64,000 nucleotides of DNA, taken from NCBI RefSeq assembly GCF_022869805.1, contig NZ_CP094974.1, forward strand, positions 2,294,001 to 2,358,000. The letters run 5' to 3'. Source of the DNA: Halosolutus halophilus (GTDB lineage: Archaea > Halobacteriota > Halobacteria > Halobacteriales > Natrialbaceae). Both the position numbers and the translations under genes were made by a program. Shown here piece after piece: positions 47,714 to 64,000 of the stretch; positions within the stretch are counted from its first letter, which is position 1; the number at the start of each line of letters is the position of its first letter. The notes below the pieces were generated by a model, which worked only from the letters and a program-made list of their open reading frames with translations, ran no database searches and had not been told where the DNA came from.

Positions 47714-48175
47714 ACGTCGACCTCCGGCCGACCGGCGAAAAATAGTTCCGGTTCACAACATGTGTTGTTAATTGATATCCAGGCTGCCGGACGGTTCACC
47801 GTCGCCGGCGCCGTCGACGTCGACCGCGACGGCGTTGCCGAGGCGGAAGCGTCAAGACCGTCTTCGCTGGCGTCACGACGCAGGGTTCGACGCGGTCGTC
47901 GAGTCGTTTCGAGGTACGTTCGCTCATCGTCACGGAGGCTGCGAGTCGAGATACAGGCCTCCGTGGTGTCGATGGTCGGGACACTGACTCGATCGACGAT
48001 CGGGCAGGACGCCGGTCGTGACGCCAGTTTCACGGCTTCACGAGCATTGGCGTCTCAGCGTCACGATCGAGACGAAACCGGACAGCGAAAAGAACTGCGG
48101 GCCGTTACTCTTTGCCGAACATCTGGCGCGTTTCTGTGCTAGGGAACCAAATATCTGGGGCAGTATCATGTTCCT
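47714..48175. other. Gap at the left edge of the integrated element
   Basis: Between the GH68 gene and the integrase. Open frames are low-complexity Arg/Ser/Pro readings of GTCGACGTCGAC-type sequence; none is convincing. CCAAATATCTGG at 48147-48158 is the likely integrase TATA. The element's left end should lie in or near this gap, but no tRNA fragment or obvious core site is visible. Confidence 0.4.
48147..48154 (+). promoter_or_regulatory. TATA box of the integrase gene
   Basis: CAAATATC centred about 26 bases upstream of the ATG at 48176, predicting a leaderless transcript. Confidence 0.5.
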
Positions 48176-49504
48176 ATGGCCGACATTAACGATCCGAATA
48201 ATACGCTCGAGAAGCTCGAACGCGAGTGGGAACACCTCGAGAAGTCGTCGATCAACGACGCCGACCGGGAGGCGATCGAGGACTTCGCCCGCCACCGCGA
48301 GCGCCAGGGTGTCGCCGAGAATACGCTGATCAACGACCTCGGGAACCTCCGGCGTGCCAGTGAGAGGGCCGAGAAATCGCTCATTGAGATGGATATCGGC
48401 GACGTCCGCGTCTTTCTGGGCGTGCTTAGTGATCCTCGCGACGCAGGCGGCTATGGCCTCGACCCCAACGGCAGCGGAATGTACAATTACTGCCGTGCGC
48501 TGCGGGTCTTCTTCAAATGGCTCGACGACGATCCGGACTATGACGACGAGTTCGACTTTTACGACCGAATCGAACTCCCTGATCGGAACGTCGAAGAGGA
48601 CACGATCACCCGTGACGATCTCCTCTCCGAAGACGAGATCGAGGAGCTGAAGCGAGCAGCTGCGAACAATCGAGATCCAGTTCTGATTGACTTTCTCGCT
48701 GACGTCGGGGCCCGAATTTCGTTGGCTCTCTCGCTGCGCGTCGGTGACGTCTCCGGTATCGACGGTCCCAAACCAACCTTCCGGCCGAATAGCGCCGCAG
48801 TCGGGTTGAAGGGTGTCGAAGACCGACCGTACCCGATCCTGTACTCGCGTGCGGAGCTCCGGGAGTGGTTGAACCGTCATCATCCCGATCGAACCGGTGA
48901 CCGGGGAAGACCACACGACGACGCACCATTGTTCCCCGTTATCGAGGAGTACGACCACGATCGTTGCGACGAGATGGCGTTGTCGACCGACGGGTTCCGT
49001 GGGACGCTCGATCGGATCGCTCGACGAGCCGGCATCTCGCGCCGGATCACACCCCACCATTTCCGGCACGTCTTCATGACTCGGGTCCGGAACTCCGACC
49101 TCGAGGATCGCGAGATCGAGCACATGTCGATGCTGACTGACGACCAGATGCGGATGCTCGACAGGTACGATCACACCACTCACGAGGAGCGGAACGATTC
49201 CATCTTCGAACGCCACGGGTTTGTCGACGAAGATGAGGACGAAGATGGCGGCCTCGAGATCGTCAACTGTTTCAATTGCCGTTCGGAGGTAAAATCCTCG
49301 GCGTGGCACTGTCCCAAGTGTGGAGTCGCGCTTCGAGACGAGATTCGCGAAGCGATCGACGAAACCCGTGTCGAAATGCAGGACCGGGCCGTCGAAGAGG
49401 ACGATCCGGACCGTCGAAAAGTGGCGATCGACATCGCTCGGGTTGCGGAGACCGATCCCGAACTGGCCGAGAAACTCGCCCAAACGCTCGGTCACATCGA
49501 CTGA
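48176..49504 (+). CDS. Tyrosine recombinase/integrase with C-terminal zinc ribbon
   Basis: A 442-residue XerC/D-type site-specific integrase. A SAM-like DNA-binding domain spans about 25-120, with a catalytic domain from about 145. The first catalytic Arg is Arg180 (DVGARISLALSLRVGDV), the HxxR box is His294-Arg297 (TPHHFRHVF), a second His-like position is His316, and the nucleophile is Tyr331 (LDRYDHTT). The C-terminal 90 residues carry an acidic linker and a zinc ribbon with two CxxC pairs (CFNC, CPKC, about 365-382), as in several haloarchaeal integrases. It ends one base before the stop of the convergent cassette. It probably integrates and excises this element. Confidence 0.92.
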   Translation: MADINDPNNTLEKLEREWEHLEKSSINDADREAIEDFARHRERQGVAENTLINDLGNLRRASERAEKSLIEMDIGDVRVFLGVLSDPRDAGGYGLDPNGSGMYNYCRALRVFFKWLDDDPDYDDEFDFYDRIELPDRNVEEDTITRDDLLSEDEIEELKRAAANNRDPVLIDFLADVGARISLALSLRVGDVSGIDGPKPTFRPNSAAVGLKGVEDRPYPILYSRAELREWLNRHHPDRTGDRGRPHDDAPLFPVIEEYDHDRCDEMALSTDGFRGTLDRIARRAGISRRITPHHFRHVFMTRVRNSDLEDREIEHMSMLTDDQMRMLDRYDHTTHEERNDSIFERHGFVDEDEDEDGGLEIVNCFNCRSEVKSSAWHCPKCGVALRDEIREAIDETRVEMQDRAVEEDDPDRRKVAIDIARVAETDPELAEKLAQTLGHID

Positions 49505-49505
49505 A

Positions 49506-49682
49506 TCACGCATCGTCATCACCCGCCTGCCCTGCAACTTGGAGAACGGCTTTCGCGATTTGTCCGGCACGGGAGTCTTCGGTAGCCCAGTCCTCAAGGA
49601 CGGGACCGTGCTGCTCGTAGAGCTCCTCGGCAGAATTCGGTTCGTCTGGCCCATCTGTTAGAGAGTTCGTTGCTTGGCTCAT
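49506..49682 (-). CDS. Small acidic protein (58 aa), last gene of the overlapped cassette
   Basis: A 58-residue hydrophilic protein, MSQATNSLTDGPDEPNSAEE followed by a helical segment (VLEDWATEDSRAGQIAKAVLQVAGQ). No family recognised. Its ATG overlaps the upstream stop as ATGA, and its own stop lies one base from the integrase stop. Accepted as real because of the unbroken chain of 4-base overlaps. Confidence 0.7.
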   Translation of the reverse strand: MSQATNSLTDGPDEPNSAEELYEQHGPVLEDWATEDSRAGQIAKAVLQVAGQAGDDDA

Positions 49683-50008
49683 CGGTCGATCACCTGATTG
49701 CGGACGTAGACGCGCGCGGACCACGGTCGGTCCATCAACTCGATACACGTCACGAGCCCACCCTGACGGGCGAGCAGGACGGTGTCGGTACGACGATGGT
49801 AGCGGGCGACGGCGCCCCGATAGGCACTTGGGTAGTGGATCGGCGCGGCCTCCTGCCATGCCTCTTGGACGTCGACGTCGTCGAGTAGCGCCCGGTCGGA
49901 CCAGCGGTCTTCGACGTGGTCCGTGATCTCGCCGATCGAGACCTCCGCAGCGCGCCGGCGCTCGTGCTCGGCGACATCGTCGTCGAAACCGAAGGTGGCG
50001 GCGCTCAC
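49679..50008 (-). CDS. Cassette protein, 109 aa, unknown
   Basis: The start is the GTG at 50008 forming a GTGA overlap with the preceding stop; the frame is open to 50017 but the overlap fits the cassette pattern. Acidic N-terminal half with helices (VAEHERRRAAEVSIGEITDH) and a C-terminal half of alternating strands (YRGAVARYHRRTDTVLLAR, then VTCIELMDRPWSARVYV). No known family, Cys cluster or DNA-binding motif seen. Confidence 0.7.
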   Translation of the reverse strand: MSAATFGFDDDVAEHERRRAAEVSIGEITDHVEDRWSDRALLDDVDVQEAWQEAAPIHYPSAYRGAVARYHRRTDTVLLARQGGLVTCIELMDRPWSARVYVRNQVIDR

Positions 50009-50301
50009 TGCAACCACCTCGCTTCAAGCTGGCGATCGAGACGGGCCCCGTACTCTCGCACCTCGAGCGTCTCGACCGCCGACCACTCGCCGGAGAACTT
50101 GCTGCTTTCCTCCGACCGAACCTCGTGGCGGATGTCGACACCGACGCCGTGCGTGTACTCGACGACGAGCCGATGCTCGACCGTCTCGTGGCGGTGTCGA
50201 AACCCAGTGAACGGTTTCGTCGACCATTCCGCCATAACGTGACGGGTGTCGGATTCCCAGTGGGTCGCGTCGTCGCGGCCGGTGGAGTACTTCGCCGTCA
50301 C
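50005..50301 (-). CDS. Cassette protein, 98 aa, unknown
   Basis: A soluble 98-residue protein with alternating basic and acidic patches and strand-like segments (HRLVVEYTHGVGVDIRHEV, then GEWSAVETLEVREYGARLD). No recognised domain. Joined by 4-base overlaps on both sides. Beta-rich composition suggests a compact fold; function unknown. Confidence 0.7.
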   Translation of the reverse strand: MTAKYSTGRDDATHWESDTRHVMAEWSTKPFTGFRHRHETVEHRLVVEYTHGVGVDIRHEVRSEESSKFSGEWSAVETLEVREYGARLDRQLEARWLQ

Positions 50302-51065
50302 GCCTTCTCACCCCGCGGTGGGACATCGCGAACGTCACTATAGCACCCGAACGCTACTGTGATCGTTCTGGCCCGGCCACGTGTGACACCGATCGTTTTG
50401 GCGACTTCGCCGAGCGTTTCATGCTCGTCGACGGCCGCTTCGACGTCGCCTTGAGTTACCCCCTCTGGAAGTTCGACGTCGATCTCGTCCTGATCGTCGA
50501 CGGCGTCGACGGTGATCGTCTCGGCGTCGTGATTATCCGTCGGTTCGTCCTGGACGTCGTCGCCGGTGCCCGCTGGCGCGTCGTCCGCGCCATCCTCCTC
50601 GAGGTCGACGTCTCGTGCCTCTGACTCTGACGTTGACTTTGAATCGGGTGTGTCGTCCTCGATGGAAGTGCCGCTCTCGCCAGTCTCGTCACTCTCGGTT
50701 TCGTGGACGCCGTGTTTGACCATCCGACGGTAGACTGCACCGTAGCCGACCTCGAAGCGATCAGACGCAGCGCTGATATTCCCGTCCGCCTCGTCGTAGG
50801 CACGCTGGAGATCCGCGGTCGACGTGTGGTCGAGCATTTCCTCGGCATCCTTCTCGCGATCATCGTCGGCGTCGGCCCCCCGCTCCTCCGTTGGCATCGC
50901 GAGGGTATCCAGCTCAGCATCATCGGGAACGGTCAGCGTCACGCGGCCGCGGATCGCATCCTCATTGGCCTCCAGTAGTTGCGCGCCGTCGATGTCGACC
51001 GGCGTGTTCTGGAGTGCATCGACGACATCGGCGAAACGGCGAAGGTCGTCAGCGGCGATCGTCAT
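50298..51065 (-). CDS. Two-HTH DNA-binding protein of the cassette
   Basis: A 255-residue acidic protein. An N-terminal helical/strand domain (1-65) is followed by a helix-turn-helix near 80-120 (TADLQRAYDEADGNISAASD, then FEVGYGAVYRRMVKHGV), resembling Fis/resolvase-type HTH. A long disordered Asp/Glu/Ser linker (about 122-200) leads to a second HTH near 205-245 (GDVEAAVDEHETLGEVAKTI, then GVTRGRARTITVAFG). Two HTH units joined by a flexible linker suggest binding of two DNA sites. It may regulate the cassette or act in element maintenance; no homologue is recognised. Confidence 0.72.
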   Translation of the reverse strand: MTIAADDLRRFADVVDALQNTPVDIDGAQLLEANEDAIRGRVTLTVPDDAELDTLAMPTEERGADADDDREKDAEEMLDHTSTADLQRAYDEADGNISAASDRFEVGYGAVYRRMVKHGVHETESDETGESGTSIEDDTPDSKSTSESEARDVDLEEDGADDAPAGTGDDVQDEPTDNHDAETITVDAVDDQDEIDVELPEGVTQGDVEAAVDEHETLGEVAKTIGVTRGRARTITVAFGCYSDVRDVPPRGEKA

Positions 51066-51454
51066 CGAGAACGCACCTCCTCGCGATCGTGGACCACTCC
51101 ACAGACGCCGCAGGTCACACCGTCGACGCCGCGCTCGTTACGGATCGCCGAGTGACCGCACGGGAGGGCGCCATCGCGATCGTTGCCCTCGAGGACGGCC
51201 TGGATCCGCTGGTAGGCGTCCGGATCGGTTTCCCAGAGACAGCGGCGTTTGGACCATTCCGTGCACTTGACCCGATCGACACGGCGAACGATCCCCTTGT
51301 TCTGGAGGCCGACCAGCTGGTTCGCGAGGTCGTCAGGGATCACGTCGGATCGCCAGCGCTCCCCTGGTTCGGGAAGAGCCAGGAGCCGCTGGGCATTCCG
51401 CCGGATGTACGGCAGTTGGTCCTGCGGGATGTCACTGGGTACTCCGGCACTCAT
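51062..51454 (-). CDS. Cassette protein with C-terminal zinc finger, 130 aa
   Basis: An N-terminal winged-helix-like part (YIRRNAQRLLALPEPGERW, then IPDDLANQLVGLQNKGIVRR) and a C-terminal Cys/His cluster (LPCGHSAIRNERG, then VTCGVCGVVHD) that could bind one zinc. Both junctions are 4-base overlaps. Likely a small nucleic-acid-binding protein; family not recognised. Confidence 0.72.
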   Translation of the reverse strand: MSAGVPSDIPQDQLPYIRRNAQRLLALPEPGERWRSDVIPDDLANQLVGLQNKGIVRRVDRVKCTEWSKRRCLWETDPDAYQRIQAVLEGNDRDGALPCGHSAIRNERGVDGVTCGVCGVVHDREEVRSR

Positions 51455-51825
51455 CGGCTCTCACCCCGCTCGCGTTTGTACGCGACTGGATCCGGTCCGT
51501 GGATGGTCACGCCCGTGCCGCCGCAGTCGGCGATCAGTCGAACGTCGCTGTTCTCGTCGGCGCGCTGCAGGATGGACGCCCGCCAGACGTGCCCGACCGC
51601 CGATCGAAGCGCAGCTCGGACTTCGGGATGGTCGACCTCGTTGCGGAGGGCCTCGAGGGACGAACAAACGTCGTCGATCTCGTCGCCGGTCTCGCGATCA
51701 CCGACCTGGATCCCGTCGTCGGTGATCCACGGCTGCCGATCGCCGCAGATCGGACAGTAGCGCGCAGATGCACGAATCTCTCCCCCACACCCGTTGCAGG
51801 TGATGCGGTACGATCCACCCGTCAC
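51451..51825 (-). CDS. Cassette protein with N-terminal zinc ribbon, 124 aa
   Basis: A zinc ribbon at residues 8-28 (ITCNGCGGEIRASARYCPIC) is followed by a helical middle (EIDDVCSSLEALRNEVDHPE, then VRAALRSAVGHVWRASI) and a short strand end with CGGTGVTIHG. This CxxCG-CPxCG ribbon is widespread in haloarchaeal element proteins. Function unknown. Confidence 0.75.
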   Translation of the reverse strand: MTGGSYRITCNGCGGEIRASARYCPICGDRQPWITDDGIQVGDRETGDEIDDVCSSLEALRNEVDHPEVRAALRSAVGHVWRASILQRADENSDVRLIADCGGTGVTIHGPDPVAYKRERGESR

Positions 51826-53084
51826 GCGGATTCACCTCCGTCCTGTTCAGTACCCATGTCTGCTGAACAGTCCGGGCAGTAAGCGGGCTGCTCACCGTTT
51901 TCGAGGGTTTCGTAGGTCCAACCCTCTGACTCCATGTCGTTGTACGGCACCGTAGCATCGCAAGTGTGACACGTCACGTCCGGGTTGGCCGGCCACGGCC
52001 GTTGTGTTCCGGTCAAGGGTTGATCGATCCCCCCGTCGGTCGCGACGGCTCGCTTGAGGTCGACGTCGTGCATCTCCTTGCGCGCATGGCGGTCCATCTC
52101 GTCGGAGACATCGACGAGGTCCGTGTTCTCGAACGACCAGGCGCAATCCTCGCACGTCGCACGGTGGATCGGCTGCCCGCCGTCCGTGGTCGCGACCGGC
52201 GCCGAGTCATCGTGATCGTCGTCTGGCCAGTCGTCGAAAGCAGCCTCGGGTCCGACTAGGACGGTCATCGCGCTCTCGGTCTGTGCGCGGATTCCACGGA
52301 GGTAGCGTTCACCTGCCTTCCGGGTGGGCTCGGCGAGGTCCTCGTCGTCCTGGACGTCCTCGAGGAGCGACTCGGTCAGCTGGTCGATCTCCTCGAGGCG
52401 GCTCTTGATCGAGGGGCGATTCTCGATCGAGACATGGTCCTGGACGCGTCCGCCATCAGTCACCAGGTCGACGTCGTCGTTCTCCCAGCGGATCGTCGTG
52501 TTCGACGTGAGTGCGAGCAACTCGAGTGCGCCGTCGGTCGCGACGATGTGCTCGGGCCCGCGATCGCGTGCTGCTGCGGCCGCCAATTCTTTCGCGTTGA
52601 ACGGCCCGTCGACGACCGCCGATCGTGTCTCATCGACAACGTAGTACTCGTCGTCCTGGTCAGCACCACCGTCTGTACGGACTGGCCGGCAATCGTGGTT
52701 CGCGAGATCAGTGATCGTATCGAACGGTCGCTTACAGAGATCACACCAGTGGGCGTTGCCGGTGAGGAACGCCTCACGCCCCTCGGACTCGCGGCCACCG
52801 TCGGTCGCGACCTCAGATTCGCCATCCGTCCTAGATTCCTCGCCTGGAAGCGGACCGATGTACCGGCGGCGATGTGCACTACACTCTGGACACGGAGCCG
52901 AGCCGGTGTACTCGTGCCCGCAGCTCGTACACCGGTACTCGAGGTTGTCCTGATTATCTTGGTCATTGAGGTCGGCGGCCGTCTCGAAGTGGTCGGACGG
53001 AACTCCGTGGCGGCTCTCGAGGGCCTCCATCTTACACTGCTGGCAGAGCCACGAGTGGTTCCCGCAGGTCGGGCAATCGCTCAT
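51822..53084 (-). CDS. Multi-zinc-finger protein with TDGG linkers, 420 aa
   Basis: Largest cassette protein. At least five Cys clusters occur: CPTCGNHSWLCQQC (residues 4-17), YRCTSCGHEY...CPEC (about 50-68), WCDLCKRPFDTITDLANHDC (C2H2-like, about 112-131), CEDC...H (about 312-335) and CHTC...CPDC (about 375-408). Between them the linker motif (V/A)-x-TDGG recurs about five times (near 92, 136, 209, 298 and 348), separating modules. It looks like a string of nucleic-acid or protein-binding modules rather than an enzyme. No overall homologue recognised. Confidence 0.75.
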   Translation of the reverse strand: MSDCPTCGNHSWLCQQCKMEALESRHGVPSDHFETAADLNDQDNQDNLEYRCTSCGHEYTGSAPCPECSAHRRRYIGPLPGEESRTDGESEVATDGGRESEGREAFLTGNAHWCDLCKRPFDTITDLANHDCRPVRTDGGADQDDEYYVVDETRSAVVDGPFNAKELAAAAARDRGPEHIVATDGALELLALTSNTTIRWENDDVDLVTDGGRVQDHVSIENRPSIKSRLEEIDQLTESLLEDVQDDEDLAEPTRKAGERYLRGIRAQTESAMTVLVGPEAAFDDWPDDDHDDSAPVATTDGGQPIHRATCEDCAWSFENTDLVDVSDEMDRHARKEMHDVDLKRAVATDGGIDQPLTGTQRPWPANPDVTCHTCDATVPYNDMESEGWTYETLENGEQPAYCPDCSADMGTEQDGGESA

Positions 53085-53371
53085 CGTCCACCCCCGTGGA
53101 AGAAGACGCCAGCGCGCAACTCGGTGCGCTCGAGGGCGGCCACCAGGTAGTTCGATTTGTCACCGGTGTTGTTATCCCCGTCGCGCGTTGACGATCCAGT
53201 TGGACGGGCCTGAGCTCCTGAACAACCTCCCGTCCGTGCTGCCGCATCCTCGCGCGGCGGCGTTTTTGCTACGGCGTCGCGATCCGTACTCTGATCTCGA
53301 CTGTCCGCACAGCCGGCTATACCGCGGTCAGTGGGGCAATACTCATTTACCCCGAAGCTCTCGTTTTGCAT
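53081..53371 (-). CDS. First gene of the overlapped cassette, 96 aa
   Basis: From ATG 53371 (MQNESFGVNEYCPTDRGIAG). A polar, Thr/Arg/Gly/Asp-rich N-terminal 65 residues, probably disordered, leads into a helical end (KSNYLVAALERTELRAGVFF). Its stop overlaps the next ATG. Weak as an isolated gene, but its position at the head of the chain and in front of a promoter region makes it likely to be translated. Confidence 0.55.
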   Translation of the reverse strand: MQNESFGVNEYCPTDRGIAGCADSRDQSTDRDAVAKTPPREDAAARTGGCSGAQARPTGSSTRDGDNNTGDKSNYLVAALERTELRAGVFFHGGGR

Positions 53372-53569
53372 GGTCGGAAACCTCGTGCGGAGGTTGACCC
53401 GACCCCGGCGTGCTAGGGACACGTCGGACTTTTGGCCCGAAAGGGCCGGGTCGATTGAATATTGAGCCTCCCCTTACAAATAATTTCCTAACGATTTACA
53501 ATCGTCTGATAACGATACACCACCAGTTTCAAACACTTTGGTTACGTTTTCGTACGTATCGGTAAACCT
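53372..53569. promoter_or_regulatory. Divergent control region between cassette and repressor
   Basis: Holds, from left to right: the cassette 5' leader with a stable GGCCC-GAAA-GGGCC hairpin (53440-53453), an ATATT-containing TATA-like stretch near 53457-53464 for the minus-strand cassette, the ACGAT-TTACA-ATCGT palindrome (53491-53505), and further ACGATAC/GTATCG half-sites (about 53512-53560) before the repressor ATG. Confidence 0.5.
53491..53505. promoter_or_regulatory. Palindromic operator candidate
   Basis: ACGAT-TTACA-ATCGT, a perfect five-base inverted repeat between the divergent cassette and repressor promoters. Related half-sites (AACGATAC at about 53511, CGTATCGG at about 53555) lie closer to the repressor start, as expected for autoregulation by a winged-helix repressor. 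Confidence 0.5.
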
Positions 53570-53869
53570 ATGGCTACTAATCGCCCCACCGTAGATGTGG
53601 TACGACAACGGGCCGAGTGGATGCGCCCAGTTGATGAGCGCATCATGGAAACGATGCGTGATGAAGGGAATCTCACGCCGCAAGCTGTGGAAAACTTCGA
53701 CGTTTGCTCCCGTAGCCATGCAAGCCTTCGGCTTTCCAAACTTGCGAAATACGGGCTGGTTGACCGAATCGCACAAGGCCTCTATCGACTCAACGACGAC
53801 GGCCGGGATTTTCTTGACGAGGAACTCGACGCGAGCGAACTCGAACCAGTCGAGGATATCGAGGACTGA
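53570..53869 (+). CDS. PhiH1-like winged-helix repressor
   Basis: A 99-residue winged-helix protein of the kind found in haloarchaeal proviruses and related to the phage PhiH1 repressor. Pattern: a WMRPVDERIMETMRDEGNL start, recognition helix around NFDVCSRSHASLRLSKLAKYG, and a wing ending LVDRIAQGLYRLNDDGRDFL. The acidic C-terminus is short. Divergent from the eight-gene cassette with a palindromic site between them, it is the natural candidate for its repressor and for control of element state. Confidence 0.85.
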   Translation: MATNRPTVDVVRQRAEWMRPVDERIMETMRDEGNLTPQAVENFDVCSRSHASLRLSKLAKYGLVDRIAQGLYRLNDDGRDFLDEELDASELEPVEDIED

Positions 53870-53877
53870 CATCGTTT

Positions 53878-54144
53878 TCACCGAAGTTTGCCGCGAACGA
53901 GTTCGATCGCGTCACTGATCCACTGGGGCAGAGGTCTCGTCGGTGGATCCCGATTGACACATTTCCCTGCGCTGTCGAACTCAAGGACCCACTCGTCCTG
54001 GCCGTGATCGATGGTGACCGTTCGATCGCCGTCCTCGCTGTGGGTCAACTCTAACGTAGCTGTTCTGGGGGCCTCCGGTGGTACGTCGGCCCCGAGATCG
54101 GGCCGGAGATCGATGTCGATTCGTTGGCGGTCAGTCGTCGACAT
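53878..54144 (-). CDS. Small hypothetical protein, 88 aa
   Basis: From ATG 54144 (MSTTDRQRIDIDLRPDLGAD). Mostly beta-strand character (TATLELTHSEDGDRTVTIDH, then DEWVLEFDSAG) and a C-terminal helix (QWISDAIELVRGKL). Typical haloarchaeal acidity. Convergent with the repressor. The frame to 54228 includes a less typical segment. Family unknown. Confidence 0.65.
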   Translation of the reverse strand: MSTTDRQRIDIDLRPDLGADVPPEAPRTATLELTHSEDGDRTVTIDHGQDEWVLEFDSAGKCVNRDPPTRPLPQWISDAIELVRGKLR

Positions 54145-54404: not shown

Positions 54405-54557
54405 ATGACAGGTGATCAATCGACGGTCGGGCAGTGCCCAGAGTGCGGCAGTTCGATCTCGAGCGGATGGAAGTTGATTGAGTACGAACGCGATGACGGA
54501 CCACTCGGAGTCTTCGCTGAATGCCCGTCGTGTAACGAAGTCGTCGCTCCAGAGTAA
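54405..54557 (+). CDS. Small zinc-binding protein (50 aa, DUF7837-like)
   Basis: A 50-residue protein, MTGDQSTVGQCPECGSSISS and onward, with a first CPxCG pair (residues 11-15) and a second CPSC pair (40-43) around a short core (GWKLIEYERDDGPLGVFAE). This matches the short haloarchaeal CPxCG proteins of the DUF7837 type. Starts right after the G-string element. Confidence 0.75.
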   Translation: MTGDQSTVGQCPECGSSISSGWKLIEYERDDGPLGVFAECPSCNEVVAPE

Positions 54558-54679: not shown

Positions 54680-55270
54680 CTACTCTTCGGCTGCCATCGC
54701 GCCAAATACGCCGGCGGCGTCCTCCGGAACGTCGAAGTCGTGATAGTGCTCCCCCTTCTCCTTCGAGAGGATATTCAACGCGGCAGCTGCACCGTCACCG
54801 GCGGAAATAATTGCTTGCCACTCTTCGGCTCGAACCATCGCTCCTGTCGCGTACGCGTCGGTAACGGTCGTCTCCATCGTGACATCAACGTCTACGACAT
54901 CTCCATCGAACGAGCAGCCGAGCGATTCTGCCAAGTCACGGTTTGCGCCGGTCGCAAGCACGACGTAGGTGGCCTCGTATTCGTCCGCTGGTGTTTCGAC
55001 AACAAACCCGTTGTCCGAGGGAGTGACGGCTTCGACCGTCTCACCCTGCTTTCGTTCGACACCGAAACGGTCTACCTGCGTTCTCGCGGTCTCCATGAAC
55101 GCCGACCCATCTATCGAGCCGATACCGAGATAGTTGAACAGGTGGGCCTTGTGCATCCACGTCGAGTCCGTGTCGAAGAGAATCGTTTCGAGCCCGTTCT
55201 TCTGCGTGTAGAGACTAGCGCTCAATCCGGCCGGCCCGCCACCGACGACGATGACATCTGTGTCACTCAT
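54680..55270 (-). CDS. FAD-dependent oxidoreductase, thioredoxin-reductase-like (short)
   Basis: A 196-residue flavoprotein. The FAD motif is DVIVVGGGPAGLSASLYTQK at residues 5-24. VVLATGANRDLAESLGC follows near 105-121, and the closing TDAYATGAMVRAEEWQAIIS, then GDGAAAALNIL, matches the C-terminal FAD site of thioredoxin reductases. The NAD(P)-binding domain and the redox CxxC are missing. It is therefore a short, single-Rossmann relative, common in haloarchaea, whose electron donor is unclear. Intact frame with no sign of truncation at either end. Confidence 0.85.
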   Translation of the reverse strand: MSDTDVIVVGGGPAGLSASLYTQKNGLETILFDTDSTWMHKAHLFNYLGIGSIDGSAFMETARTQVDRFGVERKQGETVEAVTPSDNGFVVETPADEYEATYVVLATGANRDLAESLGCSFDGDVVDVDVTMETTVTDAYATGAMVRAEEWQAIISAGDGAAAALNILSKEKGEHYHDFDVPEDAAGVFGAMAAEE

Positions 55271-55546
55271 GCACTGATCGGTTTGTGTCTCAGCAATAAG
55301 TATTTCCGAGTAACGTATACGTCACCCCCTGCTACTCATGACATAACTGTCGATCCGATCTTATTTCTATACTGCTTGTAAAAATCGATCATCCTTGCCC
55401 CCTTTGCGCGTTCTATTCATGTAAAACAGTTATCGAAGTATCAATTTATTCTCAAAAAGTTGTCAGATACAGAGGACGTTTTCAATCGGAGAGTGATGTC
55501 AATCGGAACACAAGATTCATGCTGGTAGGTAGAAATCGTATGCGAA
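55271..55546. other. Gap of lower GC, no gene recognised
   Basis: Relatively AT-rich (e.g. TATCGAAGTATCAATTTATTC near 55433, trimmed). Probably promoters for the divergent flavoprotein and the membrane protein. Confidence 0.4.
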
Positions 55547-56050
55547 ATGAATATCGAACCGATTGCAATTCTGCATATGGGGGTCTTTCTCGCAATTGTC
55601 AGTGGACTCTACGGATTGCTCATCGCACTCTTCTGGTCGCCCTTCCTCCTTACGGAACACTTTCGTCAACTCTTCGGCTTGCTTTCTTCCTTCGATTGGC
55701 ACATAAACTACGTTCTCTGGATACCGCTCCCGGCGGTGTGCTGGGGGTTTCTCTGTGGGAGTGTCATTTCGCTGAGCCTCGACGTCCGACCGCCAACCGA
55801 TGCATCGCCGCTCTATGTAGCCGGACTGGACGGTATCATAGTGGCGACCGCGGTCTCGGTCCTTTTGTGGCCAGCCCTGCTGCTGTACGTGCTGCCAGTT
55901 CATGGGGTTGACTGGTACTCAAACAAAGACACGTCACCGACGGTTACACTCGTCATCGGGGGAACCATCTGCTATCTACCGTGGCTCATCATCCCGACCT
56001 ATCTCATCGTCCTCTTTGCTGGCTTTGGGGACGTCATGACCGGACCCTGA
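55547..56050 (+). CDS. Membrane protein, hypothetical (167 aa)
   Basis: A 167-residue protein with four or five hydrophobic segments (about 7-33, 50-75, 84-112, 130-165) and few charged residues. No family recognised. Codon use is less GC-biased than chromosomal genes, consistent with acquired DNA. The ATG is preceded by weak AT-rich sequence. Could be a small transporter-like or signalling membrane protein; not decidable. Confidence 0.6.
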   Translation: MNIEPIAILHMGVFLAIVSGLYGLLIALFWSPFLLTEHFRQLFGLLSSFDWHINYVLWIPLPAVCWGFLCGSVISLSLDVRPPTDASPLYVAGLDGIIVATAVSVLLWPALLLYVLPVHGVDWYSNKDTSPTVTLVIGGTICYLPWLIIPTYLIVLFAGFGDVMTGP

Positions 56051-56444
56051 GTAACCAGACTGTGCCGCTGGATGGCGGATGTGGCAATGGCTACCATAAC
56101 CTGGTATAGGGCGAGAAACATGCATCGAGTCAGTCAGAAGTTCTCGACTACTTGGTTGAATCATCATCGATCAGTACGCACGTATAGTTGCCGTCCAGTA
56201 CAGGTGAAGCTGTTACCGGTCCTGTCCCCAATCGATCTGATAGCTATCAAAAATGGCCTGCTGAATACAGAGTATGGCTCCGACAACGGCGTTCTCAGGA
56301 GACTCATTCATCGAATGCGAGACCGGTGCCTGAAATCTGGAACGAGGGTGGAACCTGCCGTCTCATGGTATCCAATCGAGGAGGAATTCACGACCCGGTC
56401 AGTACACGACGAACTTATCCTACCTGGGACCCACCATCGTTCAT
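56051..56444. other. Gap holding one copy of a TGCTGAATACAG repeat
   Basis: No gene recognised. At 56263-56276 it contains CTGCTGAATACAGA, whose inverted copy lies at 59564-59576, so the pair flanks the histidine kinase. Nearby CTGATAGCTATCA (56238-56250) is a short palindrome. Confidence 0.45.
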
Positions 56445-59400
56445 ATGAGCGATCAAGCAAGGAGTTCAGGGGGCAGATTCTGGGCGGACGCTGCCGGCGA
56501 ACACGCACTCGATCGCTACTCTACTCTCGTCAATATGGTCGACGACGGTATCTACCAGCTCGACGCCGATGGGCGGTTCGTCGCGGTGAACGATACCATC
56601 GTCGAATTAACCGGCTACTCTCGAGAGGAGATCCTCGGCGAGCACGCGTCGCTCATGCTCGCCGACGACGACGTCAGCCGTATCCAGCACGAGATCGATC
56701 GGCGGCTCACCGCCGACGACCGTCAGAACGAGGCCATCGAGTTCACGGCCTGGACGGCCGACGGTGACACAATCCCGTGTGAAATGGAGCTACACCTGGT
56801 CGTCGAAGATAGCACGTTGCAGGGGTCCATAGGGGTCGTGCGCGACATCACCGACCGCAAGCAGGCGGAACGCGAACTCCGACAAGAACGCGATCTCGTC
56901 AAAGGAATCGTCGAGACCAGTCCCGTCGGAATCGCGGTCGTCGACGCCGACGGCGAGGTGTCCTTCGCCAATGAGCGCGCCGAGAAGATATACGGTCGCT
57001 CCCGTGACGAACTCAGCGGTTTCTCCCACGACGACCCTCGCTGGGATCTCGTTGACGAGAATGGCAAGCCGCTCAAGACGGGAGAAGCACCGTTTGACCA
57101 CGTAGTCACGGAGGAAGAGGCGATCTACGATCAGGTCCTCGGCCTTCGCAAGCCCTCCGGTGAGCGCGTCTGGGTGTCAGTCAACGGCGCCCCGCAATTG
57201 AACGAGGACAGTGAACTGGAACGGGCCGTATTCGTGTTTGAGGACGTGACCGAGCAACGTGAGAACGAGCGCAGGCTCGAAAAGAGCGAACAGCGGTACC
57301 GGACGCTTGTCGAGAACTTCCCGAATGGATCGGTGGGTATGTTCGACGAGGATATGCGGTACACCGCAGTTGGTGGACAGCTCTTGAATACGCTCGATAT
57401 GGAGCCGGAGGACCGAATCGGAAGAACCATCCACGAAATCCATTCGGACGATCTCGTTGAACAAATCAAACCATACTTCCAGGGCGCACTCGCGGGAGAG
57501 GCCGGTACCTTCGAGATCGAGTTCAGGGGCCGATACCTCCACGTGCACGCTCTCCCGGTAAGGGACGCCACAGACGAGGTGTTCGCTGGCATGATCGTCG
57601 TCCAGGACGTTACCGAGCGCAAGAAACGCGAACGCGAACTCGAGCGAAATAAGGAGCACCTCGAGACTCTATTCGAGGTGCTCCCGGTCGGTGTCGTCGT
57701 CGCGGAGGCTGACGGAGAGATAATCGAGGCCAATGATACCGCACACATGATCTGGGGCGGGGACGTCTTCGACGCCGACTCCATCGAGGAGTACGACCGG
57801 TACCCGGTGCGATGGGCTCATTCGGACGTGCGAGTCGAACCTGAGGAGATGACGCTGGCCCGTGTGGTCAACGGCGAAGAGGTGACCGAACCCGATATCT
57901 TCGAGATTGACACTGCTGACGGCGAGCGACGGATCATCCGAGCGGAGGGCATGCCGATCCGGGACGGGACTGGCGAGGTGACCCGCGGAGTCGTCACCCT
58001 GAGCGACATTACCGAGCGCAAGGAGGCGCAGCGTCAACTCGAAGAATCTGAGCGACTCTACCGTACATTGACCGAGAACTTTCCGAACGGGACGGTCGGC
58101 GTCTACGACCACGACCTCCGGTACACGCTGGCGGCAGGGGAGAAAGTGGGCGACCCCGCACCCAGCGCAGAGGAAATCGAAGGGACACGAATGCCAGAGC
58201 TATACTCCGACGATGCCGTGACGGATCTCGAGCCGTTATTCCGAACTGCCATCGAAGACGGCGAGACCGGAACCATCGAAACCGAGGTTGTCGGTCGCGA
58301 CTGGCGGGTATGGGCCACACCGTTACGGGATGCGGACGGCGAGATATATGCCGGACTGAGCTTCGCCCAAGATATCACCGAGCAAAAGGAACACGAACGT
58401 GAACTCGAACGGGCACTCGACTTGCTTGAGCGGACTGAGCGCATCGCGGACGTCGGTGGCTGGGAGCTCAATCCACAGACCCAGGACGTGTTCTGGACCG
58501 ACCACGTCTTCGAACTCCTGGAGGTACACTCCGACGAGGAACCCCCGCTGGACGAGGCGCTCGACATGTATCACGAGGAGGACAAACCGATCGTTGAGGA
58601 TGCCGTCGAGGACGCGCTCGCCTCCGGCGACCCCTTCGATGTCGAGGTGCGGCTCCGGACGGCGGCCAGCGACCAAATACGCTGGCTTCGACTTCAGGGA
58701 GATCCGGAGACCGTCGACGACGAGGTCATCTCGTTCCGCGGGGCGGTTCAGGACATCACCGAACGTAAACAGCGCGAGCAGCGACTCGAAGAACTGATCG
58801 AAAGGCTCGAGGAATCGAACGAACGCCTGGAGCAATTCGCCTACGCCGCCTCTCACGACCTGCAAGAACCCCTGCGGATGGTCTCCAGCTACCTCCAACT
58901 CATCGAACGACGCTATGCTGACGACCTCGACGAGGATGCGCAGGAGTTCATCGAGTTCGCCACCGACGGCGCCGACCGAATGCGCAACATGATCGATGGG
59001 CTCCTTCAGTACTCACGAGTCGAGACACAGGGTGACGACTTTGAGCCAGTCGAGTTGAACGCCGTCGTTGAGGACGTCTGCGATGATCTTCAAGTCCGGA
59101 TCGAGGAGACTGACGCCGAAATCACCGCTGACTCGTTGCCACGCGTCAACAGTGACGAGGAGCAGTTGCGCCAAGTGTTCCAAAACCTGCTGGACAACGC
59201 CATTGAGTACAGCGACGATGAACCGCCCAAGGTGGATATCTCAGCCGAACGAAACGATGCTAAATGGGTCGTCTCGGTCAGCGACGAGGGGATCGGTATC
59301 GAGCCAGACGACGCCGACCGCGTCTTCGAGGTGTTCCAGAGCCTCCACCCCCCAGACGAACATGGAGGGACGGGGATCGGGCTCGCGGTGTGCAAGCGCA

Positions 59401-59501
59401 TCGTCGAGCGCCACAATGGTGATATTTGGATCGACTCCGAACCTGGCGAGGGGACAACATTCTCGTTTACACTACCTGCGGCGAGTGACCACGAGGGATA
59501 G
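56445..59501 (+). CDS. Six-PAS-domain sensor histidine kinase
   Basis: A 1018-residue soluble kinase with no membrane segments. About six PAS domains in series: roughly 25-140 (GIYQLDADGRFVAVNDT), 150-270, 285-395, 405-525, 535-650 and 660-785, each ending in a D(I/V)TERK/Q linker. The third and fifth are very alike (YRTLVENFPNGSVGMFDEDM and YRTLTENFPNGTVGVYDHDL). HisKA has ASHDLQEPLRMV (phospho-His near 804), and the ATPase has LLDNAIEYS, DEGIGI and GTGIGLAVCK. No receiver domain is attached. It probably senses redox, light or small ligands in the cytoplasm and could feed a single-domain regulator such as 20070-20525. Confidence 0.92.
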   Translation: MSDQARSSGGRFWADAAGEHALDRYSTLVNMVDDGIYQLDADGRFVAVNDTIVELTGYSREEILGEHASLMLADDDVSRIQHEIDRRLTADDRQNEAIEFTAWTADGDTIPCEMELHLVVEDSTLQGSIGVVRDITDRKQAERELRQERDLVKGIVETSPVGIAVVDADGEVSFANERAEKIYGRSRDELSGFSHDDPRWDLVDENGKPLKTGEAPFDHVVTEEEAIYDQVLGLRKPSGERVWVSVNGAPQLNEDSELERAVFVFEDVTEQRENERRLEKSEQRYRTLVENFPNGSVGMFDEDMRYTAVGGQLLNTLDMEPEDRIGRTIHEIHSDDLVEQIKPYFQGALAGEAGTFEIEFRGRYLHVHALPVRDATDEVFAGMIVVQDVTERKKRERELERNKEHLETLFEVLPVGVVVAEADGEIIEANDTAHMIWGGDVFDADSIEEYDRYPVRWAHSDVRVEPEEMTLARVVNGEEVTEPDIFEIDTADGERRIIRAEGMPIRDGTGEVTRGVVTLSDITERKEAQRQLEESERLYRTLTENFPNGTVGVYDHDLRYTLAAGEKVGDPAPSAEEIEGTRMPELYSDDAVTDLEPLFRTAIEDGETGTIETEVVGRDWRVWATPLRDADGEIYAGLSFAQDITEQKEHERELERALDLLERTERIADVGGWELNPQTQDVFWTDHVFELLEVHSDEEPPLDEALDMYHEEDKPIVEDAVEDALASGDPFDVEVRLRTAASDQIRWLRLQGDPETVDDEVISFRGAVQDITERKQREQRLEELIERLEESNERLEQFAYAASHDLQEPLRMVSSYLQLIERRYADDLDEDAQEFIEFATDGADRMRNMIDGLLQYSRVETQGDDFEPVELNAVVEDVCDDLQVRIEETDAEITADSLPRVNSDEEQLRQVFQNLLDNAIEYSDDEPPKVDISAERNDAKWVVSVSDEGIGIEPDDADRVFEVFQSLHPPDEHGGTGIGLAVCKRIVERHNGDIWIDSEPGEGTTFSFTLPAASDHEG

Positions 59502-59755: not shown

Positions 59756-60817
59756 CTATCGGGAGAGTGTCGGATTGTCCGGCAACTCGACGACTGGTTC
59801 GATAGTCGGATCGATCGCCTCGTAGACCCGATCTTTGGTCGTCCCGTCGAATGCGATGAGATCGTACGCCTCGAGCTTCGGGAACTTATTACGCCGGGCC
59901 CGTTCTCCGATCGGACAGACGGGCGTCCCTTCGTAGACCGCATCGGCCACTGCATCATAGCGATCGTGTAACTCTTCACCCGAAAGCTCACCGGCCTCGT
60001 GGACGATCGCGTAGAGCACCTGATGATGATACGGGAGTGACTCCAGGTTCAACTCTCGGATCCGGTGCTGCGCGCGCTCGTAGGCATCGTCGACGTCGCG
60101 ATCCTGGATCCAAAGATGGCCACGATCGTGTGCTAACTCGGCAGCGGCTCGCAACGACTGGATTCCCTTGCGGGCAACGCCAGCGACCTCATCCGCGATC
60201 GCCTCGAGTTGCGCTCGCGAGACGACGTCCCCGTGCAATCCCTGCCGGGCCCGCCGCTCGAGGATATCCGCGAGCTCGGGTACGCGATAGCGATCGAGTT
60301 CGACGTGTTCCTGGTCGAATGGATGGCCGTCGTCGACGTCCAGTCGCGAGAGCCAGTCGGTCCCATCGTGAGCGATCGCGACGACGGTCACATCGGCAAT
60401 CGCGAGTAGTTCGCCGATCGCCTCGGTCTCCGGCAGGTCGTCACCTTCGTCCAGAACGACGATCGTCTCGTCGTCGATCGCGTCGCGGAGTTCGCGGCAG
60501 GCCACGTCCACTGTCATAGTCCGTGGGACGTCGTCTGGTCCATTTGGGTGCTGCTCGAGGACTGCTCGAAGGACGCCCCCAGTGGTTTTGCCGAGTGAAT
60601 CAACAAAGACACGGGTGACGCCCGTCTGTCGTTGAAGACGATCGACGGCCTTCTTCGCGAGGAGTGTCTTGCCGACCCCGCTCGGGCCCGAGATGAGTGC
60701 GTCCGTGTCGCAGGGGCCGGTCGTGAATCGGCGGAGAAGCTGCTCGATCTCGTCCTCTCGATGCAGCAGATTGGGTGGAATGAACTTGTCGTCGAACACC
60801 CGCGGATCCGCGATCAT
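59756..60817 (-). CDS. Orc1/Cdc6 family replication initiator
   Basis: A 353-residue AAA+ initiator from ATG 60817 (MIADPRVFDDKFIPPNLLHR). Walker A is GPSGVGKT at 44-51 and Walker B IVVLDEGDDLPE near 119-130. Sensor-like DVTVVAIAHDGTDW follows, and then ELDRYRVPELADILERRA, typical of archaeal Orc1/Cdc6. A C-terminal winged helix (about 270-345) ends with KLEAYDLIAFDG. The Walker B has EGDD rather than the usual DExD order. It is smaller and more divergent than chromosomal Orc1 proteins, as expected for one carried by a plasmid or integrated element. Likely initiator of this element. Confidence 0.9.
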   Translation of the reverse strand: MIADPRVFDDKFIPPNLLHREDEIEQLLRRFTTGPCDTDALISGPSGVGKTLLAKKAVDRLQRQTGVTRVFVDSLGKTTGGVLRAVLEQHPNGPDDVPRTMTVDVACRELRDAIDDETIVVLDEGDDLPETEAIGELLAIADVTVVAIAHDGTDWLSRLDVDDGHPFDQEHVELDRYRVPELADILERRARQGLHGDVVSRAQLEAIADEVAGVARKGIQSLRAAAELAHDRGHLWIQDRDVDDAYERAQHRIRELNLESLPYHHQVLYAIVHEAGELSGEELHDRYDAVADAVYEGTPVCPIGERARRNKFPKLEAYDLIAFDGTTKDRVYEAIDPTIEPVVELPDNPTLSR

Positions 60818-62095: not shown

Positions 62096-62314
62096 CTACT
62101 TCTGGAGGAAGCGATCGCGCCAGAAATCGGTCTTCGCCCAGCGCTGCGGGCAGTCCGACGCATGTGGGATCTCGTCAATGTTCAGCGCCGACTTTCCACA
62201 CCCACAGCACTCAATTTCGCCGGTCGGTTCGCCGACTTTGAAGCCGTCGTCCCAGACTGGCGTCTCACTCCGGATGAGTTTGTACTCCGTCTCAGGGGCG
62301 AGCGCGTCACGCAT
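62096..62314 (-). CDS. Small Cys-rich protein, 72 aa, second cassette
   Basis: A zinc-finger-like cluster IECCGCGKSALNIDEIPHAS, then DC (about 34-55), between a helical N-terminus and a basic end (WAKTDFWRDRFLQK). Its ATG overlaps the upstream stop by one base (TAATG). Probably nucleic-acid binding; no family recognised. Confidence 0.7.
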   Translation of the reverse strand: MRDALAPETEYKLIRSETPVWDDGFKVGEPTGEIECCGCGKSALNIDEIPHASDCPQRWAKTDFWRDRFLQK

Positions 62315-62511
62315 TACCGCACCCCCAGCACGATCACGAGGCGGCCGATCTCGACTGTCCGGTTGTCGGTGTGTCGGAGCACTGTTCCAGCGGCCCCGCT
62401 GGGCTGCGGGCCGATCACGAGCTCAAGTTCACCGTCACCCGTGGCGTCGGCCACACTCACGAGGGGGAGTGTCTCGATGATCGCCGCGAGAAGGCCACGT
62501 TTGAGCCCCAT
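62314..62511 (-). CDS. Small protein, 65 aa, second cassette
   Basis: A short beta-rich protein (LVSVADATGDGELELVIGPQ, then TVLRHTDNRTVEIGRLVIVLG) after a hydrophobic N-terminus. The ATG directly abuts the upstream TAG. No family recognised; accepted on its place in the tight cassette. Confidence 0.6.
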   Translation of the reverse strand: MGLKRGLLAAIIETLPLVSVADATGDGELELVIGPQPSGAAGTVLRHTDNRTVEIGRLVIVLGVR

Positions 62512-62709
62512 CTATCTCCCCTCCACGACACCGTCAGCGCACTCGATCGCGACGTCCTCGACGGGTTCGCGACCCACCGGCTTCCACATGCCAGCGATGC
62601 GCTCGTATTCGATCCGCATGTGATCGCCGCCGGCCATCGGTTCGAACGCGACCTTCCGGATTTTGCCATCGACACCACGCCAGCGAACGTCGAACCCTCG
62701 CTCGGTCAT
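62512..62709 (-). CDS. Small protein, 65 aa, second cassette
   Basis: From ATG 62709 (MTERGFDVRWRGVDGKIRKV). A compact beta/alpha sequence with basic patches (GKIRKVAFEP) that could contact nucleic acid. Its start overlaps the stop of the SWIM-protein gene by four bases. A longer upstream frame is Arg-rich shadow sequence. Unknown family. Confidence 0.65.
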   Translation of the reverse strand: MTERGFDVRWRGVDGKIRKVAFEPMAGGDHMRIEYERIAGMWKPVGREPVEDVAIECADGVVEGR

Positions 62710-63047
62710 CGCGACCACCGCGGTTCCCCGCTGCAGTGCTCGCCGAGCTCGCCGGCGATGTCGTCGCGATCGACAACCGACGGGACCGGCCGAGCGCCAG
62801 TCGCGTAGGCGACCCGTTTGAGGTGCTTGCACTCTCGCTCGCGGTACCGGTGATCGGGACACTCGCACGCCTTCAGCCTCGTGTCGACGAGGTACTCCGA
62901 GCCGCTCTCCGAGACGACGAGATACTGGCCATCGGCGCCGGCGACGCGGCTGACGTCCTCGAGGACGGTGAGGTACTGCGTCAGTGCTCGGCGATCGATG
63001 CCGTCGACGTCCTCTTGGATGGACTCGGCTTCGGCGGCTGCCATCAT
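62706..63047 (-). CDS. SWIM zinc-finger protein, 113 aa
   Basis: From ATG 63047 (MMAAAEAESIQEDVDGIDRR). A helical N-terminal half precedes a SWIM domain: LVVSESGSEYLVDTRLKAC, ECPDHRYRERECKHLKRV, giving the CxCxxH...CxH pattern (near residues 65-82). SWIM domains bind DNA or proteins and are frequent in haloarchaeal elements. The start makes a 4-base overlap with the upstream stop. Confidence 0.85.
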   Translation of the reverse strand: MMAAAEAESIQEDVDGIDRRALTQYLTVLEDVSRVAGADGQYLVVSESGSEYLVDTRLKACECPDHRYRERECKHLKRVAYATGARPVPSVVDRDDIAGELGEHCSGEPRWSR

Positions 63048-63637
63048 GCATCGACCTCCTTGAGCAGTGCCTCGACATGTCCCTCGAGGTTCTCCCGGTT
63101 GCCGTGCTTGACTGCGAGTTCGGCAATTCGAGCGCCAGGTCCCCACAGCGAGGATGGTTTCAGGTCGTGAGCGAAGCCCGCAACGAGTTCGTCGACGTCT
63201 TTGCCGATGTTGTTCGCGATGCGCTGGAAGAACCGTCGATCCGGCGCGTCGAAGACGTCGAGGTCACCGTCGAACTCGACGATCGTCTCGGCGAGGCCGA
63301 AGTAGGCCTGGACGTGGCCGTCGATCTGGACATCCCACTCTTCGACCTGTTCGTCGTACCGAACTTGGTCGTCGTCCTGCCGCCCGAGTAGCTTGTGGAT
63401 CGCCTTCTGCTTCGGGTGGCGCTTGTTCCGCAGCGCCCAGAACTCACCGAACTCCTCGAGGGTCTCGATCCGGTAGGAAATCTCGACCTCGCCTTCGGTT
63501 CGTTCGGTCACGTCGCCATGCTCGCGGATGATCGTCGCCGGTCCGCTGGCCTCGACGAGAAACGATCGCGGGAGTGGCGTCACCTGCTCACCTTCGAGCG
63601 CCCCTGCGACGTCGGCGCTACTGGCCTCGATCGCCAT
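63044..63637 (-). CDS. Cassette protein, 197 aa, unknown
   Basis: From ATG 63637 (MAIEASSADVAGALEGEQVT). A strand-rich N-terminal half (RSFLVEASGPATIIREHGDV, then EGEVEISYRIETLEEFGEFW) precedes a helical C-terminal half (RFFQRIANNIGKDVDELVAG, then IAELAVKHGNRENLEGHVEAL, trimmed). No catalytic motif seen. Overlaps its neighbours (TGATG upstream, ATGA downstream). Possibly a structural or regulatory element protein. Confidence 0.65.
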   Translation of the reverse strand: MAIEASSADVAGALEGEQVTPLPRSFLVEASGPATIIREHGDVTERTEGEVEISYRIETLEEFGEFWALRNKRHPKQKAIHKLLGRQDDDQVRYDEQVEEWDVQIDGHVQAYFGLAETIVEFDGDLDVFDAPDRRFFQRIANNIGKDVDELVAGFAHDLKPSSLWGPGARIAELAVKHGNRENLEGHVEALLKEVDA

Positions 63638-64000
63638 CACTCCTCACCTCCGACGTCGTGGACGGATGCAACGCGCTCGAGTCGGCTTCGGGGGAACGCG
63701 TAGCGCTTCAGCGTCTCGATCGACTTGGTAGTTCGATCAGGGTAGACGACCTCGTACACGTCATCCTTTGGATCGAACTCGGGGTTGACGTCCGCGACGG
63801 TCTTGTTCGTGCCCTCGAGGCGGTACTCGTCGGCGTTGTGCGGCGTCGTTTCGACAACGACCATCGTCTTCTCGTCGTCGTCCTCGGTGACGTCATGGAC
63901 GTGATCGCCGACGTACAGCGGACCGCGATCGCCGTCGCCCGCGCCGTCGGCCATGCGCAGTTGGGTCTCGGCGGGCTCGGCGTGGCTATCCTCGCCGCCG
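63637..64000 (-). CDS. Cassette protein, at least 105 aa, possibly cut by the window edge
   Basis: The clear part starts at ATG 63954 (MADGAGDGDRGPLYVGDHVH). The frame stays open to the window edge, reading EDSHAEPAETQLR before that ATG with haloarchaeal composition, so the true start may lie outside. Beta-rich body with YEVVYPDRTTKSIETLKRYA, perhaps a small DNA-binding or KOW/Tudor-like fold. No named family. Confidence 0.6.
   Translation of the reverse strand, partial: GGEDSHAEPAETQLRMADGAGDGDRGPLYVGDHVHDVTEDDDEKTMVVVETTPHNADEYRLEGTNKTVADVNPEFDPKDDVYEVVYPDRTTKSIETLKRYAFPRSRLERVASVHDVGGEE

Follow-up and report, generated by a model that had tools for sequence, protein, structure and literature searches.

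Gene overlap is common in haloviruses, and in Hardycor1 half of the genes overlap at their start and stop codons (PMC7911831). For gene pairs of Haloferax volcanii, coupling at such overlaps by termination-reinitiation has been demonstrated experimentally, and the downstream genes of an operon can outproduce the upstream ones several fold (Huber et al., PMC6728339). In Halobacterium phage phiH1, the RepR gene runs divergently from leader-bearing early lytic transcripts, and a further early transcript is the target of an antisense RNA (record annotation; PMC6210493). Here we analyzed a cassette of eight coupled genes beside an integrase gene in a 64,000-nt stretch of the Halosolutus halophilus genome (G000:C1:2294001-2358000, hereafter the window). 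A first-pass annotation had suspected a system that may be new; a module of this kind is already present in BJ1, Humcor1, and HJTV-4, all of them isolated viruses, where its genes have no assigned functions. On balance, we consider it fairly probable that the cassette is the early, lysogeny-control operon of a temperate tailed halovirus, with a single entry point, a leader that gates it, and a chain of coupled genes.

Layout of the cassette

The minus strand of the window carries eight open reading frames (ORFs) between 53371 and 49506, with lengths of 96, 420, 124, 130, 255, 98, 109, and 58 aa in transcription order (g1 to g8), and all seven consecutive pairs overlap by 4 nt. The first-pass annotation had described this arrangement correctly, together with its divergence from a PhiH1-like regulator (rep, 53570..53869, plus strand) and its convergence with the integrase gene, the stop codons of g8 and of the integrase being 1 base apart. 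Its details needed correction in two places. The overlaps read ATGA, GTGA, ATGA, ATGA, GTGA, GTGA, and ATGA in transcription order, so that GTGA occurs three times and not once, beside four ATGA, and the proteins that are Cys-rich or combine Cys with a helix-turn-helix (HTH) number four (g2 to g5) instead of five.

Gene starts outside the window were supplied by an in-house, codon-usage-based gene caller trained on the window and its relatives. The caller independently selects all eight cassette ORFs, and six of the seven junctions are still 4 nt long when it receives no bonus for such overlaps; the remaining g1/g2 junction hinges on the start of g2, which homologues set at MS-x-C-x-TCGN. Same-strand pairs of the flanking host DNA overlap by 4 nt in 7% of cases, compared with 60-68% for the junctions of 36 homologous cassettes, where the remainder are mainly overlaps of 1, 8, or 11-14 nt or short gaps. 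The coupling is thus genuine and greatly exceeds the host background. At these frequencies, about 3-7% of such cassettes (0.60^7 to 0.68^7), or one or two per 36, should show a perfect run of seven, and the complete uniformity in the window is therefore not special. The idea that uniform 4-bp overlaps are a special signal was accordingly dropped, the relatives having overlaps of 4, 1, 8, and 11 bp.

A structured leader RNA with a built-in reading frame

The head of the operon is a structured leader RNA of about 285 nt (53170..53453, minus strand), with a 5′ domain (53453-53375) that precedes the start codon of g1 and a 3′ domain (53352-53201) that lies inside g1. Seven loci with a rep-type regulator align gap-free over 152 nt (window 53352 to 53201), and their alignment forms stems with compensatory changes. 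When the 5′ domain is included, these seven sequences show double changes at 17 of 53 pairs, compared with 5.6 in shuffled controls and 1-6 in slid controls. Among 31 aligned copies, double changes affect 27 of 33 pairs and amount to 106 cells, against 33 in shuffled and 20-28 in slid controls; this larger alignment was fitted to the covariance model and is biased towards it, whereas the seven-sequence MAFFT alignment is free of that bias. The covariation exceeds the controls, and the leader region is a structured RNA. Upstream of the fold, an AT-rich, TATA-like box can be seen by eye in the compared leader sequences.

The GC-rich dyads adjoin the gene of a DNA-binding repressor, and in most relatives an Orc1 gene is close by, as would suit a DNA feature such as an operator array or a replication origin near orc1. 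We regard this reading as very improbable. Indeed, G-U pairs are frequent in the stems (helix 2, for example, has GU in 2, 4, and 4 cells and UG in 2), which favors RNA over a DNA dyad; moreover, the dyads covary rather than preserve a binding sequence, and the context of the start codon is kept strand-specifically.

The covariance model R1, built from the 3′ domain, matches 36 of the 125 genomes of the family, plus four genomes of another family. Among the 28 loci derived from R1 (L115-L142), rep lies directly and divergently upstream in 24; the four loci without rep likewise have no start codon, and every one of these loci that keeps the start codon has rep. The genes downstream of the RNA vary: they are the cassette in the window, other coupled operons elsewhere, and the integrase gene in Harhisp1. 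Three divergent matches (L139, L141, and L142), with neither rep nor start codon and with only the 3′ stems well kept, may represent another element. In L135 and L138, an in-frame fusion joins a shortened leader to a protein that starts IGVDLGEH(N/T)LYTACP and looks TnpB-like by eye.

No Rfam 15 family matches the leader at E 1, and none scores above its gathering threshold in three further loci. Searches of phages with blastn gave no match to the leader, and its exact pattern is absent from the viral contigs searched. The repeats that overlap start codons in Hardycor1 (PMC7911831) were considered as a counterpart and gave no credible R1 match. As far as Rfam and the literature searched extend, the leader RNA and its ORF are undescribed. 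Elements with a ribbon-helix-helix regulator have another leader of about 310 nt (model R2), which lies wholly upstream of the first gene, covaries at 17 of 31 pairs, and was found in 15 of 292 genomes (examples are L025, L027, L028, L066, L078, and L098) as well as in the isolated virus HJTV-4.

The first gene of the cassette had been taken for an ordinary protein gene, a view that does not hold, as its conserved part behaves as structured RNA. This leader ORF (g1 or ORF1, 53081..53371, minus strand, 96 aa) overlays the structured RNA with its first 57 or so codons, has a short, partly conserved C-terminus, and is coupled through ATGA at its stop to g2. Over its first 66 codons, substitutions number 476, 439, and 494 at codon positions 1, 2, and 3 (1386 pairwise codon comparisons), and such an even spread is not the product of protein selection. 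This evenness would also suit a free-standing non-coding RNA, either a processed leader or an antisense target as in phiH1, in which base conservation alone has created ORF1 as an artefact and g2 is the first gene translated. Divergent copies with indels not divisible by three, the loss of ORF1 from four of the divergent copies, and the plausible starts that g2-type genes possess of their own point the same way. We nevertheless judge this alternative unlikely, though it is the most serious one. The start codon is kept 19-20 nt ahead of the R1 core in 27 of the 31 copies, and at this position in Harhisp1 as well. In every one of these 27 copies, the frame continues uninterrupted across the RNA, whereas in the seven loci the remaining forward frames are mostly closed. 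The length of ORF1 ranges from 36 to 348 codons across loci, and in 20 of 28 loci (Harhisp1 included) its TGA lies within an NTGA overlap to a next ORF that differs by locus, the next genes being unrelated to one another. Start, fold, openness, and coupling are thus maintained with little sign of protein-level selection on ORF1.

A recurrent module with exchangeable genes

A profile built from six g7 sequences served as a marker and matches 65 of the 391 genomes of the class. Together with earlier loci, 32 regions around its matches gave a set of 39, of which 37 were compared, the caller having missed g7 in two; several loci come from related genomes, and the counts are not independent events. 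The order of the module in these 37 loci is Orc1/Cdc6, one or more regulators, a leader gene, exchangeable genes, often g5, then g7, the g8 position, and the integrase. The same Orc1 family is present in 29 of the 37 loci, and the integrase is convergent in 30; the module thus recurs in about 30 haloarchaeal elements. The regulator slot, occupied by a pair or a divergent gene, holds a PhiH1-like rep, ribbon-helix-helix, or AbrB protein. Exchangeable genes belong to c9, c16, c33, c36, c39, g2, g3, g4, c29, and other families, and the g8 slot of relatives encodes an acidic protein of about 55 aa.

The same comparison speaks against the stronger claim made for the cassette, namely, that strict coupling holds a multi-protein system at a fixed stoichiometry. 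In about 30 elements, the constant parts are the g1 position, g7, g8, and, in some cases, g5, whereas g2, g3, g4, g6, and others are freely exchanged, which makes these proteins unlike the subunits of one machine. The genes are not inherited as a set, and a fixed multi-protein machine was rejected because of this exchange between elements; coupling does not set stoichiometry, and the evidence does not support a novel multi-protein system.

Fast turnover of the middle genes, with the ends fixed, is typical of variable cargo, and the cassette could be a defense or anti-defense island, acting in superinfection exclusion or in the inhibition of host immunity, with the swapped genes as variable armament and the RNase (ribonuclease)-like g7 among them. 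We think this improbable, given that the cassette sits next to a repressor, with replication genes on one side and integration genes on the other, that its backbone is common to ordinary temperate viruses, and that no defense family was found in Pfam, NCBIfam, or PHROGs (PADLOC was not searched). Of the three roles initially suggested for the cassette (element control, host takeover, or defense), its early, element-control position agrees with the first, and defense drew no support from these family searches.

From sequence comparison, the module appears to be the early region of BJ1-like temperate tailed viruses, a designation that concerns the kind of module and not a formal taxon. The window has the Orc1 gene upstream, the divergent winged helix-turn-helix (wHTH) repressor, and the coupled operon ending in g7 and g8 with the convergent integrase, all as part of a head-tail provirus with defined ends; in this comparison, g7 was matched by sequence and g8 by position only.

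The same genome holds two further copies. A second complete cassette (L005:7848-13055, G000:C1:4007348-4012555) has its own integrase and a leader of the ribbon-helix-helix type and lies about 1.1 kb from a tRNA-Lys gene. A third, decayed copy (L004:9819-11950, G000:C1:3001819-3003950) retains fragments of g5, g4, and g2, the last 94% identical, and a 50-aa CxxC ORF whose window counterpart is at 54405-54557.

Cassette proteins and the neighboring regulator

In profile searches, no cassette product reaches the Pfam or NCBIfam cut-off, in agreement with the initial remark that none belonged to a recognized family. The g2 protein (51822..53084, minus strand, 420 aa) is a multi-CxxC protein with zinc-ribbon-like Cys pairs and a variable middle. 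Sub-threshold profile matches suggest an N-terminal zinc ribbon and a helical domain in g3 (51451..51825, minus strand, 124 aa), which has a 47% identical homologue in HJTV-4. The g4 protein (51062..51454, minus strand, 130 aa) would combine a winged helix with a C-terminal Cys4 zinc ribbon; a scan of the genome contigs with g4 alone found no relative, and neither did searches of phages or, with an alignment as query, of viral contigs. An acidic linker and a conserved C-terminal HTH-like segment make up g5 (50298..51065, minus strand, 255 aa), of which the same genome encodes two more homologues; its HTH was read by eye and from sub-threshold profile matches. For g6 (50005..50301, minus strand, 98 aa), the compared loci hold no homologue.

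The structure-based searches recommended in the first-pass annotation gave, for g4 and g7, weak matches only. The AlphaFold2 model of g4 (predicted local distance difference test score, pLDDT, 82.6) weakly resembles wHTH regulators and TFE-alpha in Foldseek. The best-conserved cassette protein, g7 (49679..50008, minus strand, 109 aa), adjoins the integrase end, and its model (pLDDT 88.8) has a predicted BECR/DUF4258-like RNase fold. Its best Protein Data Bank matches in Foldseek (E 0.15-0.3, probability 0.54-0.75) are colicin D tRNase, CdiA-CT of NC101, and colicin E5, with HigB lower down, and the named phage neighbor, also weak, is a DUF4258 protein (probability 0.84); we take all of these to be relatives of the BECR-fold RNases. 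Based on this model, g7 is probably a small BECR/DUF4258-fold RNase, in which residues H31, R39, and R69 are conserved. The position beside the integrase had suggested an excisionase, a candidate rejected because the predicted fold is unlike the small DNA-binding Xis fold. An Rfam match to mir-1540 at 49923-49978 (27.7 bits against a cut-off of 90) is due to chance.

The final gene, g8 (49506..49682, minus strand), encodes an acidic protein of 58 aa with the place and shape of the c8, c31, and c51 proteins of relatives; it has no direct sequence match, and its family membership is positional only. The predicted fold of g7, its three conserved residues, and the overlap between g7 and a g8-like acidic protein, which measures 4 nt in most relatives and 1 nt in BJ1, would fit a toxin-antitoxin or addiction module that stabilizes the provirus, with g7 as the RNase and g8 as the acidic antitoxin. 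However, g7 occurs without g8 in several elements (L005, L075, and L083) and also in HJTV-4, in which the next ORF is on the opposite strand, so that the two are not an obligate pair; in addition, g8 is the second gene, unlike the arrangement of many type II pairs. We rate such a pair as rather unlikely, if slightly less so than a defense island.

The repressor gene rep encodes a PhiH1-like winged-helix protein (PHROG 2440 transcriptional regulator, E 3.1e-29) and is divergent from the leader. It has homologues in BJ1, Humcor1, and Harhisp1 and is 37% identical to the "PhiH1-like repressor" of HHPV4; phiH1 is absent from the 11 records matched at E 1e-3, and RepR was thus not matched. Next to rep lies the gene of an 88-aa protein of family c28 (53878..54144, minus strand), a family that flanks rep in rep-type elements.

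A provirus in a probable secY gene

The cassette and the integrase form the left end of a provirus of about 63 kb, for which the sequence was extended rightwards and is cited in continued window numbering. A 15-bp direct repeat just left of the integrase gene (attL core CCGAACATCTGGCGC, 48115..48129) recurs as attR (CCGAACATCTGGCGC, 111057-111071, or G000:C1:2405057-2405071), which falls in the last codons of a 485-aa gene (111047-112504) that closes an archaeal ribosomal-protein operon and that we read as secY, judging by where it lies and by its sequence. A congener (G015, locus L111) has the core only once, with the flanks adjoining each other; this is therefore an empty site, and the element spans 62.9 kb, from roughly 48.1 to 111.07 kb. 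A literature search for haloarchaeal proviruses at secY turned up no paper.

A head-tail gene set (83449-103179; L006, L010) is transcribed in the same direction as the cassette, and we assign its portal, capsid, and tail genes by their size, by their order, and by homology to HJTV-4, to which the tail proteins are 38-46% identical. One 1478-aa, tail-fibre-like protein matches HJTV-4 gp42 in part. The tyrosine integrase (48176..49504, plus strand; Pfam PF00589, E 1.7e-10; PHROG 1 integrase, E 1.7e-20) has a C-terminal zinc ribbon and no match in phages by tblastn. The Orc1/Cdc6-type replication initiator (59756..60817, minus strand) is 46% identical to ChaoS9 Orc1 and 44% to BJ1 ORF16 (99% coverage). 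Beyond it, a second coupled operon of small genes (62096..64000, minus strand, continuing to 64318 past the window) has homologues in HJTV-4 and in an IMG/VR provirus (G415). Between rep and orc1, a stretch of lower G+C content (54680-59501), probably cargo or an insertion, holds a short ORF resembling flavin adenine dinucleotide (FAD) reductases (54680-55270) and a 1018-aa ORF read as a PAS sensor kinase (56445-59501).

Proposed model

In a lysogen, the divergent repressor Rep would silence the operon promoter. Upon induction, one transcript would begin just upstream of the leader RNA, ribosomes would load within the structured leader, at ORF1, and would then move down the following genes by termination-reinitiation at the NTGA junctions. 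The leader fold could then act as a second, RNA-level gate over the whole operon. Possible gating agents are a ligand, the advance of the ribosome itself, an antisense RNA of the kind seen in phiH1, or a protein, for which a zinc-ribbon product is one candidate. We infer the promoter, the transcript, the gating, and the silencing of the operon by the repressor. The products would be exchangeable early proteins, comprising zinc-ribbon and HTH regulators (g2 to g5), a probable BECR-fold RNase (g7), and a small acidic protein (g8), which probably tune host and viral gene expression around the decision between lysis and lysogeny and around excision.

Several points weigh against this model. BJ1, Humcor1, and HJTV-4 have the module without the R1 RNA, which is therefore not essential to it. 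Translated ORFs do not usually run through strong folds, and ORF1 might remain untranslated. Finally, the BECR assignment of g7 rests on Foldseek E values of about 0.03-0.3 and a template modeling (TM) score of about 0.45.

More tentatively, and with somewhat less than even confidence, we propose that the structured leader RNA with its built-in ORF represents a new class and is a portable regulatory unit of tailed and pleolipoviral haloviruses, placed between a PhiH1-like repressor and any operon, where one gated ribosome entry and the NTGA chain would turn that operon on or off at the RNA level and so provide a second lock beside the repressor. If true, the earlier observation from phiH1 that lysogeny in haloarchaea is controlled by RNA as well as by a repressor becomes testable in many genomes, and the leader would be a ready regulatory part for haloarchaeal genetics. 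The leader is the more surprising part of the locus, being a long covarying RNA outside Rfam that is tied to a repressor gene and holds the start of an ORF that would feed ribosomes onward. For the cassette itself, widespread orphan genes of haloarchaea gain a function by position, as they make up the variable early region of tailed viruses with a temperate life style. The cassette or its relatives can be located with g7 as a marker.

Comparison with known viruses

Like the window, the L-region of phiH1 (RepR, T-ant) has a divergent repressor gene, which faces away from early lytic transcripts that carry untranslated leaders; it differs in having RepH in place of Orc1 and no credible R1 match. 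The Haloarcula pleolipovirus Harhisp1 (MW344767) shares a rep homologue (60%) and a leader with the same 5′ stem and a start codon at -19, and its 36-codon leader ORF, which lies upstream of the integrase gene, terminates in GTGA. However, it belongs to another realm and has no cassette, and its R1 score (E 3.5e-4) comes from the first third of the fold alone.

In HJTV-4 (OP374082, gp53-gp61), an Orc1 gene accompanies coupled genes in the order leader gene, c9, c16, g2-like, g3, g5, and g7, whereas a small opposite-strand ORF with ribbon-helix-helix-type relatives replaces rep, the leader is of the R2 type, g4 is missing, and no annotated integrase adjoins g7. Humcor1, a provirus and virus of Halorubrum coriense (MW344765; PMC7911831), differs in its first gene, which encodes PadR, and in its integration in a tRNA-Met gene rather than in secY; it has in common with the window Orc1, a rep homologue (62%), a coupled operon, homologues of g7 and g8, of which the latter matches the c8 family, and an integrase with attP.

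BJ1, a Halorubrum virus (Beejeyvirus, Graaviviridae), likewise begins its operon with a PadR regulator, its overlaps measure 1, 4, 8, and 11 bp, most of its middle genes are unrelated, and its best R1 match is no better than E 0.7. Nevertheless, its ORF16-ORF31 region has the same plan as the window, with Orc1 (44%), a divergent wHTH regulator (ORF20, 56%), a run of overlapping small genes, in which ORF23 matches the c9 family of related cassettes, ORF28 is a homologue of g7 (E 1e-10), and ORF29 belongs to the g8 (c8) family, and a convergent integrase.

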